Below are positions 36,061 through 39,145 of a stretch of 64,000 nucleotides of DNA, one piece after another. Position numbers and translations under genes: made by a program. Position 1 is the first letter of the stretch; every line of letters begins with the position of its first letter. The notes beneath the pieces are model-generated. The model was not told where the DNA came from and searched no databases. It saw only the letters and a program-made list of their open reading frames with translations. The DNA comes from Bdellovibrio sp. CG22_combo_CG10-13_8_21_14_all_39_27. Its GTDB lineage: Bacteria; Bdellovibrionota; Bacteriovoracia; Bacteriovoracales; Bacteriovoracaceae. Location of the stretch: contig PCTW01000084.1 of NCBI GenBank assembly GCA_002786715.1, forward strand, positions 293,663-357,662, read 5' to 3'.

Positions 36061-36088
36061 ATTATTGCGCAAGTTTTGCGTAAGTCAA
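36061..36088 (-). promoter_or_regulatory. Candidate recA promoter overlapped by TTRCGCAA repeats
   Basis: On the minus strand: TTGACT (36083-36088), a 16-base spacer and AATAAT (36061-36066). The spacer is filled by two copies of the octamer TTRCGCAA (36076-36083 and 36065-36072) exactly 11 bases apart, one helical turn. A third related copy (TTGCGCAT) lies at 36021-36028. This is a plausible SOS-repressor operator. The -35 box overlaps the stop codon of pgpA. Confidence 0.45.
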
Positions 36089-36573
36089 GCTAAAAAATGG
36101 TGGACACCGAGATAGGTTAATCCGGCGAAGACTCCGCTTATTATATCATCAATAATTGTTCCGGCACCATGTTTAACTTTTTTATCAAAATATGACGCGG
36201 GCCAAATTTTGACAATATCGAAGAATCTAAAAAAAGCGAAGATTAGTAAGTAGTCGAGCCAGGTGTAACCAGCAATGAAAAGCCAGGTAACAGCGATACC
36301 TAAAACTTCATCAATGACTATCCAGCCAGGATCGTGGAGTTGATACTTTTTCTGGACGTGATCGGCAATGAAGCAACTTAGTACAGTGGCAACAGTGATG
36401 AAGGGGATGAAAAGAAAAAAGGGTGGGGAAAGCAAACCTAAAAGGTAGAGAAAAGGCATTGCTGCCAATGTTCCAAAGGTTCCAGGTGCCCACTTTATGA
36501 AGCCAACTCCAAAAAAAGAGCAAAACAAAACAGAAGGGTCTTTAATGTGCGGTGCATTTTCAACATTACTCAT
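36085..36573 (-). CDS. pgpA: Phosphatidylglycerophosphatase A
   Basis: An inner-membrane enzyme that dephosphorylates phosphatidylglycerophosphate to phosphatidylglycerol. The 162-residue protein has the family's GxGFIKWAPGTFGTLAAMP motif, DPGWIVIDEVLG (catalytic acidic region) and a C-terminal segment HGAGTIIDDIISGVFAGL. About four membrane helices are visible. It lies upstream of recA on the same strand and diverges from the RelA/SpoT-like gene. Confidence 0.93.
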   Translation of the reverse strand: MSNVENAPHIKDPSVLFCSFFGVGFIKWAPGTFGTLAAMPFLYLLGLLSPPFFLFIPFITVATVLSCFIADHVQKKYQLHDPGWIVIDEVLGIAVTWLFIAGYTWLDYLLIFAFFRFFDIVKIWPASYFDKKVKHGAGTIIDDIISGVFAGLTYLGVHHFLA

Positions 36574-36610: not shown

Positions 36611-37846
36611 ATGAACAGACCGCAATATTTAACAAATTATTTATTCGAATGGGAACTCCTTGAAGTTGTTCTCAATGGTAAATCTGCGCTCGATTCCAAG
36701 TTTTTTATTGGACCCATTTCTTCGATGGAAGAGGTTGAAAGTTTTTTGAAGGGCTATGGCATTGATCCTGTTGATCCAATTGCGAAGGCTGAATTGTTTG
36801 GAAATTTTCAAGAAGCCATTCAATTTATAAAGAAATATTTTCTGAAAGAGGGAAATCCAGATGGCTTAGATCTCTCTGTTCCCAATGGAATCTACATGAT
36901 CACGGACATTCGAGATCTTTTTCTCATGGCCACAGGTCACCACAAGGGTTCAACTCCAGAAGAAACATTATGGGCCGAAGTTATTTTAAAAGTGATGCAT
37001 ACCATTTTGCACGCGGATAAAGATCTTCGAAGCAATTACTTCCCAATTATTCAAACACAAATTTTTGATCAGTTTTATAAATACGTTTTTAGAGATGAGG
37101 AAAATAATCTCAATTTAGGAGTTCGTGGTGAGTTCTCTATTCCCCTTCTAGATTTTGAAACTAAGTCGAAGAAAACGCGCGAAAGTGTGATTATTAAATT
37201 GCTTCACAAAGCTGAAAATGTCGCGGAAGAAGTTTTTGATCGAATTGGCGTTCGAATCATTACTAAAAATAAGTTTGATATTTTGAGAGTGTTAAAGTTT
37301 TTAATTGAGCGCCATATTGTTATTCCCCACAACAATAAACCTAGTCGATCGATGAATACCATCTTCGATGTGAATAAATTTAAAGAGAAGCATAATGCTT
37401 TGATTAAAACGGCCTTAAGAAGTAATTTGAGTGAAGAGAAATTTTTAGATGCCGTTGAAACAGAGATCAATGAGTGCTCTATGAATAATGGAGCTGATAG
37501 AAATAATTTTACCTCTAATAAGTATCAATCGGTTCAATTCACTTGCCGACAGCTCATAAAATATAAAAATCCTTTTTTGCAAGAATTTAGAGAGTTGAGA
37601 AAATTGGCAAAAGAGGTTGAAGCTCCAAATGAGTTGTCACAGAAAATTCTTGGAATGGATGTGGCCCTTATTTCTAGAGATATTCGATTCTTTTATCCCT
37701 ACGAAATTCAAATTCTCGACATACAATCACACAAAACGAATACAGAAGGCGAAGCCAGCCACTTAGAGTATAAAAAATCACAAGTTCAAGCAGCTATGAG
37801 AAGAGTTTTTGGTAGTCTGATCAAATTTAAGAATATTCAAATTTAA
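36611..37846 (+). CDS. RelA/SpoT-like nucleotidyltransferase-fold protein
   Basis: A 411-residue cytoplasmic protein. Several blocks match the (p)ppGpp synthetase domain in the right order: a basic KSKKTRESVIIKLLHK segment (185-200), FDRIGVRIIT (209-218), NKYQSVQF (303-310; the family's NGYQSIHT with His replaced by Gln), YEIQILD (364-370; EVQIRT in Rel) and GEASHLEYKKSQ (380-391; GxAAHWxYK). A ~60-residue insertion separates the second and third blocks. The N-terminal 180 residues are helical, without the HD hydrolase motif and without TGS or ACT domains. Similar proteins occur in other Bdellovibrionota and Myxococcota as an uncharacterised family, as far as I recall. Whether it makes any nucleotide is unknown. 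Confidence 0.75.
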   Translation: MNRPQYLTNYLFEWELLEVVLNGKSALDSKFFIGPISSMEEVESFLKGYGIDPVDPIAKAELFGNFQEAIQFIKKYFLKEGNPDGLDLSVPNGIYMITDIRDLFLMATGHHKGSTPEETLWAEVILKVMHTILHADKDLRSNYFPIIQTQIFDQFYKYVFRDEENNLNLGVRGEFSIPLLDFETKSKKTRESVIIKLLHKAENVAEEVFDRIGVRIITKNKFDILRVLKFLIERHIVIPHNNKPSRSMNTIFDVNKFKEKHNALIKTALRSNLSEEKFLDAVETEINECSMNNGADRNNFTSNKYQSVQFTCRQLIKYKNPFLQEFRELRKLAKEVEAPNELSQKILGMDVALISRDIRFFYPYEIQILDIQSHKTNTEGEASHLEYKKSQVQAAMRRVFGSLIKFKNIQI

Positions 37847-38721
37847 TTATATTTTTCAATAAAATGCAGAATTCGTTCATTGATGGTTTCTGGAAAATCC
37901 ACTTGAGGAACATGGCTTCCGTCTTTAACAATATAAAGCTCTGACTTTTCGAGATGATCGTGAAGAATTTTTTGTAGATAATTTGGAATGACTTGATCGT
38001 GATCTCCCCCGATGATGAGTGCAGGAGTTTTAATATTTTCTAAATGAGAAAGTATATTGTGTCGTTTCATTTCATCAAAAAGTTGGAAAAAAATCTCAGG
38101 TTGGAGTTCACTAATTTTTTTGACATAAATATCAATAAAATCTTTAGGAGCAGTCTTGGTATTAAAACCACCACGGAAAAGAAGTTCTTTTAAAATTGGA
38201 TTTTGCGGTGTGGCCTTCCAAATTTTTGCGAAAAACTCAGGAAAAGATTTAGCTCCAAATTTCAGATATGGCTCTACAATTTCCACATAATTTGAATCGA
38301 ACATGATGTCCTGTGGTGGTAGAACAGTTCCTGATATCAACACCATCTCTTCGATTAATTCGGGGTAGGATTTGGCAATCTCGAGTGTGACATTGACTCC
38401 CATGCTATGACCAAGCATGATAGCGGAATCGATTTTTAAGTGCTCCATTAGTTGGCGAATATCATCGGCCATACCTGCAAAGTGACAATCCGAAATATTG
38501 TCGCTTGAGCTTGAATCAAAATGGAAGCGATAGTCGTGAAGAATTATGTGATATCCGAGGTCATTGAAAAAAGGAATTTGGTATTTCCAATGCGCATTTG
38601 AACAAACCAGTCCGTAATTAAAGACGATAACTGGGCCGGTTAAATCAGAATCTGGACTAAAGTTCGTTTGGTAAGCAATATTGAAATGATCTTTTGTGGT
38701 AAAAAAACCCTTAGTTTTCAC
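37843..38721 (-). CDS. Alpha/beta-hydrolase fold protein
   Basis: A 292-residue soluble hydrolase. Nucleophile elbow GHSMGV (Ser about 104), acid GGDHDQ near 235 and catalytic His in DGSHVPQVD near 265 complete the triad. The oxyanion segment VFNYGLVCSNAHW is near 35-47. The substrate cannot be told from the sequence; esterase, lipase or haloperoxidase-like are options. The GTG start overlaps the FHA gene's end by 11 bases; its own end overlaps the convergent RelA/SpoT-like gene by 4 bases. Confidence 0.85.
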   Translation of the reverse strand: MKTKGFFTTKDHFNIAYQTNFSPDSDLTGPVIVFNYGLVCSNAHWKYQIPFFNDLGYHIILHDYRFHFDSSSSDNISDCHFAGMADDIRQLMEHLKIDSAIMLGHSMGVNVTLEIAKSYPELIEEMVLISGTVLPPQDIMFDSNYVEIVEPYLKFGAKSFPEFFAKIWKATPQNPILKELLFRGGFNTKTAPKDFIDIYVKKISELQPEIFFQLFDEMKRHNILSHLENIKTPALIIGGDHDQVIPNYLQKILHDHLEKSELYIVKDGSHVPQVDFPETINERILHFIEKYN

Positions 38722-39145
38722 GACTCATCCTCTCTTCTATTTCGATGAGCTCTGACTCAATTTTTTCAAGTAAATGATCTGATTCTGAGTCTTCTGTGAT
38801 CAGCTTTTTGTAAAGGACTTCCTTCGGTGTAAAAAGATTAGGAATCTGACTCTTTTCAAGTTGCTCAACAGAAAATAAATTGCGTCCAATTCTAATCTGA
38901 TCTCCAACTTTAATTTGACGAAGACCTTTTGTTCTTTTTCCATTCAAATGAAAAGTTACCGAATCACTTTTTGCAAAAAAACCTTTTTCATCTTCAAAAA
39001 TAAAAAGATGAATAGGGTGGAGTTCGTCATCATTGATTACGATATGACTCTTAGGGGAGCGACCAATTGAAATTGAATCTTGAAGAAAGCTGAAATGACT
39101 TCCTTGCATAAGATCGATGGTTTCAATAAGTTTTAATTTTATCAT
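38711..39145 (-). CDS. FHA-domain protein
   Basis: A 144-residue protein whose N-terminal ~95 residues form a forkhead-associated domain: GRSPKSHIVINDDELHPIHL contains the conserved Gly-Arg and Ser-x-x-His phosphothreonine-binding pattern, followed by LNGKRTKGLRQIKVGDQIRIG. A helical, charged C-terminus (about 110-144) follows. It probably recognises a phosphorylated partner. It is in an operon with the hydrolase. Confidence 0.85.
   Translation of the reverse strand: MIKLKLIETIDLMQGSHFSFLQDSISIGRSPKSHIVINDDELHPIHLFIFEDEKGFFAKSDSVTFHLNGKRTKGLRQIKVGDQIRIGRNLFSVEQLEKSQIPNLFTPKEVLYKKLITEDSESDHLLEKIESELIEIEERMSREN

Follow-up and report, generated by a model that had tools for sequence, protein, structure and literature searches.

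Among synthetases of the RelA/SpoT fold (RSH), a guanosine signature has been described as SxH in the syn3 motif together with IR in syn4, and an adenosine signature as RYT in syn2, GxN in syn3, and YH in syn4; the syn motifs by themselves do not fix specificity in published work (PMC12226406). We compared a 411-residue protein encoded in the window (the whole stretch of Bdellovibrio DNA analyzed, 64,000 nucleotides) with the closest described systems. Its best fold matches in the PDB were the small alarmone synthetases RelP and RelQ, with which it shared syn1, syn2, syn5, and the catalytic Asp and Glu; however, it added a 156-residue N-terminal domain and two helical inserts, and the syn3 His and syn4 Arg were replaced. 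The synthetase motifs were also shared, by profile alignment, with the long Rel of the same genome (735 residues, L001), but the 411-residue protein is far shorter, no HD hydrolase domain was found in it, and its N-terminal domain is unrelated. With the toxSASs FaRel2, PhRel2, and CapRel it has in common the PF04607 fold and a possible nonnucleotide acceptor, whereas it is the product of a core gene, is not part of a toxin-antitoxin or fused unit, and has other syn3 and syn4 motifs. The (p)ppApp synthetases Apk1 and Apk2 likewise combine the RSH fold with altered syn motifs, but the alterations differ, and members of the 411-residue family are not secreted toxins.

The open reading frame (36611..37846, plus strand) is intact and real. 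An earlier note, made from the sequence alone, had called its product unannotated; this was incorrect, as the protein matched the NCBIfam models TIGR04562 (452 bits, cutoff 140) and TIGR04552 (434 bits, cutoff 125) over its full length, and both models were matched by 22/22 test members. NCBIfam gives these the name "TIGR04552 family protein," with no function on record; the RSH link and the active-site analysis are what the present work adds to that membership. The same note had proposed a hidden RelA/SpoT-type domain, and this was borne out by Pfam, profile alignment, and the predicted structure. The Pfam model PF04607 (RelA_SpoT) matched residues 188 to 390 with 35.8 bits (E = 1.1e-8), above its cutoff of 27; of 22 diverse members of the family, 19 matched the model at E ≤ 0.1. 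Only two proteins of the window's genome matched PF04607, namely, the long Rel and the 411-residue protein. Based on the sequence and the model, the C-terminal half is almost certainly a divergent RelA/SpoT-type synthetase domain. We found no RSH link for TIGR04552 in the literature; one paper was found that mentions the family (PMC9888234), and Bdellovibrio goes unmentioned in the text of an RSH survey from 2011 (PMC3153485). The architecture, the acceptor site, and the phylum-wide core status are new here.

The RSH motifs occur in the order ETKSKKTRESVIIKL (syn1), FDRIGVRIIT (syn2), NKYQSVQF (syn3), YEIQILD (syn4), and GEASHLEYKKSQ (syn5), so that the motif blocks read earlier from the letters do map in sequence onto those of RSH synthetases. 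Conservation was assessed over 80 sequences reaching down to about 29% identity. In syn1, the ATP-site motif (residues 185 to 200; 37163..37210, plus strand), which aligns with RPKHFFSIYKK of Rel, K185, K188, and K196 were present in 80/80 sequences and S192 in 77/80. The syn2 motif D210-RIGV-R215 (37238..37255, plus strand), with the Mg-binding catalytic Asp and an Arg that were both found in 80/80, aligns with DLLAFR of Rel. In syn4 (residues 361 to 370; 37691..37720, plus strand), aligned by hhalign to EIQIRT, the catalytic E365 and Q367 were kept in 80/80 and D370 in 79/80, and the RSH Arg was lost. The syn5 motif (residues 380 to 391; 37748..37783, plus strand) aligns with AAHWKYK and retained G380 (80/80), H384 (78/80), Y387 (79/80), K388 (77/80), and Q391 (80/80). 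The invariant set thus comprised K185, K188, K196, D210, G213, R215, N298, F310, R313, E365, Q367, G380, Q391, and R398, and S192, Y305, H384, Y387, and K388 were nearly invariant. Accordingly, the catalytic Asp and Glu and the ATP-site Lys and Ser of the superfamily are all present, and of the residues that the note had proposed to look for, ATP-site Lys were found as K188 and K196 and the catalytic Glu as E365.

A global hhalign profile-profile alignment against Rel and SAS synthetase domains paired K188, S192, K196, D210, R215, Y305, E365, Q367, H384, and K388 with their Rel counterparts. The full motif mapping came from this global mode; the local mode gave only two blocks to Rel, with low probability. 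Eleven of the 12 RSH-consensus positions fell among the 45 positions that were at least 94% conserved (hypergeometric p of about 1e-10, a guide only, the 12 having been hand-picked from the Rel alignment). Because K188, S192, K196, D210, R215, E365, Q367, H384, and K388 are donor, metal, or catalytic positions, their conservation is most simply explained by long-term selection for catalysis, and the protein is likely to be an active pyrophosphokinase.

Full-length phmmer and profile searches against PDB sequences gave weak matches only, and a fold comparison was therefore needed. An AlphaFold model built from 64 sequences (pLDDT 83.5, pTM 0.69) was helical to residue 156 and from there on had its strands and helices in the order typical of RSH enzymes, the RSH-type synthetase domain spanning residues 159 to 406 (37085..37828, plus strand). 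All 50 PDB matches listed by Foldseek were RSH synthetases, with RelP and RelQ first; the best among them was RelP (6ex0, E = 1.4e-3, probability 1.00). The predicted fold is therefore that of an RSH synthetase, the absence of which the note had named as grounds for abandoning its proposal. The E values were only about 1e-3, the TM scores to the targets were about 0.5, and the rmsd was large because of the inserts and the extra domain. A viral fold library gave no credible match.

Instead of the single insertion of about 60 residues described earlier, there are two helical ones, of about 46 and 44 residues. Judged by motif spacing against Rel and by the model, insertion A covers residues 250 to 297 (37358..37501, plus strand; helices 254 to 271 and 275 to 287; about 46 residues more than Rel), and insertion B covers residues 319 to 357 (37565..37681, plus strand; helices 322 to 334, 341 to 348, and 352 to 355; about 44 residues more). 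They flank the central strand, which comes after syn3 and before syn4. The N-terminal helical domain (residues 1 to 156; 36611..37078, plus strand) has conserved residues of its own, G23, D28, Y49-G50, P91, W121, H130, H134, D138, Q148, and Q150, and the motif H130xxxH134xxxD138...Q148xQ150 (36998..37060, plus strand) stands out among them (H130 80/80, H134 79/80, D138 78/80, Q150 79/80). When this domain was modeled alone (pLDDT 76.6, a moderate value at which a remote relative may be missed), its fold search against the PDB returned nothing better than E = 0.89 and no HD hydrolase fold, and Pfam found no HD hydrolase, TGS, or ACT domain of long Rel in the protein. A distinct helical N-terminal half with no hydrolase motif, as first described from the letters, agrees with the models and the fold search.

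The departures from RSH enzymes lie on the acceptor side. In the syn3 acceptor loop (residues 298 to 313; 37502..37549, plus strand), N298, F310, and R313 were present in 80/80 sequences and Y305 in 75/80. Y305 pairs with the Tyr of GYQSLH of Rel in the global profile alignment, and the Tyr of RSHs at this position stacks on guanine. Among the 80 sequences, position 309, the site of the guanosine His, was occupied by Q (51 sequences), K (18), or H (11). In the tree, K marks a branch with Bdellovibrionaceae-like families, and H is nested inside the window's class. The replacement of the His of QSIHT by Gln reported earlier thus holds for the window protein but not as a family rule, since clades differ in having H, Q, or K there. 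None of the aligned members kept the syn4 Arg; its place was taken by V, M, L, T, A, I, or S, and a nearly invariant Asp came next. The window protein reads GVR in syn2, SVQ in syn3, and IL in syn4 and so fits neither the guanosine nor the adenosine signature; as a rule, the TIGR04552 family has neither SxH nor GxN. In published work, specificity does not follow from the syn motifs alone, and they therefore do not identify the acceptor; a changed acceptor or a changed recognition of the acceptor is plausible. Related genomes sporadically carry CapRel-like SASs (L221, L222, and L224) with canonical GYRSIH-type and EIQIR-type motifs, and the best PDB match of one of these (L222) was 7ztb/9erv. 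The departure of the TIGR04552 family is notable because these CapRel-like SASs keep the canonical motifs.

The family was matched across nearly the whole phylum. TIGR04562 was found in 122 of 129 genomes of the class, including 73/73 near-complete ones, nearly always in one copy. Across the phylum Bdellovibrionota, 219 of the 235 near-complete genomes had a TIGR04552 match, and some lacked the gene. It was found alongside an ordinary long Rel. The genome scan for relatives, which took the best 80 loci, gave records apparently all within Bdellovibrionota; those with names were Bacteriovorax, Halobacteriovorax, Bdellovibrionales, and similar records. The family may also occur in Myxococcota. 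A tree of 60 members required 20 changes for 21 taxonomic groups, the minimum possible, and all groups with more than one row cohered; inheritance therefore looks vertical. From these patterns, the gene looks like a single-copy, vertically inherited core gene of Bdellovibrionota. No relative of the protein was found in the plasmids or the viral contigs searched. Several small-genome lineages (f15 to f18, G288 to G300; G224/G225) appear to be without the gene; the long Rel is still present in most of the ones checked. Two full-length copies were seen in one metagenome-assembled genome (G076: L020 and G076:C24:1015-2184), which may be a mixed bin.

In the window, the divergent neighbor pgpA (36085..36573, minus strand; PF04608) shares a 37-bp intergenic region with the gene and adjoins it in nearly all Bacteriovoracia loci. 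The convergent neighbor is an alpha/beta hydrolase gene (37843..38721, minus strand; PF00561) and not a small antitoxin gene. The order recA-pgpA-[gene]-alpha/beta hydrolase-recG-greA is strongly conserved in Bacteriovoracia. The alpha/beta hydrolase gene has a few bases in common with an FHA-domain gene (37843-39145 in the window), and both are convergent to the gene in the class. In Bdellovibrionia, a lipoprotein-like gene often precedes the gene, and a PlsC-type acyltransferase gene (PF01553) follows it, often within a few bases, an arrangement (L171 to L181 and L188) suggesting an operon. A gene of the nucleoside phosphorylase superfamily lies between the two in two lineages (L175:7495-8247, PF01048; L187:2575-3324). 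The neighbors plsC and pgpA give a weak hint of a link to phospholipid synthesis. The search for an adjacent antitoxin suggested by the note revealed no small antitoxin-like partner at the loci, where the neighbors were pgpA, the alpha/beta hydrolase gene, and plsC. A toxSAS toxin-antitoxin system was rejected as a reading of this near-universal, vertical, single-copy core gene with no adjacent or fused antitoxin.

Of the three proposals made earlier, an alarmone synthetase of new architecture fits best, and both a dead sensor and a toxSAS-like toxin are disfavored, the latter by the core status of the gene and the lack of an antitoxin neighbor. We lean toward a catalytically competent pyrophosphokinase of the RelA/SpoT fold that would act as a second housekeeping-type RSH-like enzyme beside the bifunctional Rel. 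Such an enzyme would transfer the beta,gamma-pyrophosphate group from ATP onto the hydroxyl of a ribose. With the guanosine His and the syn4 Arg lost, N298, F310, and R313 invariant, and two helical inserts present, its acceptor pocket would have a new shape. The acceptor would accordingly be a different molecule or else a guanine nucleotide that is held differently, and regulation or substrate binding would fall to the N-terminal domain. The protein could instead be an ordinary (p)ppGpp synthetase in which the His and Arg changes are tolerated, with GDP or GTP as the acceptor and its own regulatory domain making it a second source of ppGpp. The retention of Y305, the closeness of GVR in syn2 to the guanosine-type AVR, and the His at position 309 in 11 members of a nested clade would suit this, but with Q or K at that position in 69/80 sequences, the syn4 Arg gone from the aligned members, and both residues kept by the CapRel-like SASs of related genomes, we consider it possible at best. 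A protein without the syn3 His and the syn4 Arg could also be a catalytically dead nucleotide-binding sensor; this is quite unlikely because the catalytic Asp and Glu and the ATP-site residues, including the Lys present in 80/80, have stayed invariant over 80 sequences of great divergence.

Modification of the tRNA 3'-CCA end or of another RNA, as by toxSASs but in the role of a housekeeping regulator, would be in keeping with the rewritten acceptor loop, with its invariant R313 and N298, and with an extra helical domain and inserts that could bind RNA. We consider it improbable, since the gene is a core gene with no antitoxin neighbor, the protein had no match in the defense library PADLOC, and the CapRel-like toxSAS relatives keep the GYRSIH and EIQIR motifs that the TIGR04552 family is without. 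Even less can be said for a (p)ppApp synthetase: the family has departed from the guanosine syn3/syn4 signature, but the adenosine signatures RYT, GxN, and YH (PMC12226406) are also absent and the known Apk proteins are secreted toxins, making this very unlikely. Compared with the pyrophosphokinase that we favor, a bolder and rather speculative proposal is that of a phylum-wide core enzyme of RSH fold whose product would be neither ppGpp nor ppApp, or would be an RNA mark, serving as a regular signal under the control of an N-terminal domain of new fold.

In many members of Bdellovibrionota, a phylum rich in predatory bacteria, starving attack cells alternate with growing cells, and little is known about nucleotide-alarm control of this switch. 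A second RSH-type enzyme whose catalytic residues are intact and whose acceptor pocket has changed makes a direct candidate for such control, and it offers a testable function for the uncharacterized core family TIGR04552; if true, it would widen the range of RSH acceptor chemistries. When six lines of Bdellovibrio NC01 were evolved on one prey, a 1-nucleotide deletion in the orthologue DOE51_RS08710 rose to more than 75% in one of them (PMC9888234); in that laboratory coculture, the bacteria can therefore do without the gene.
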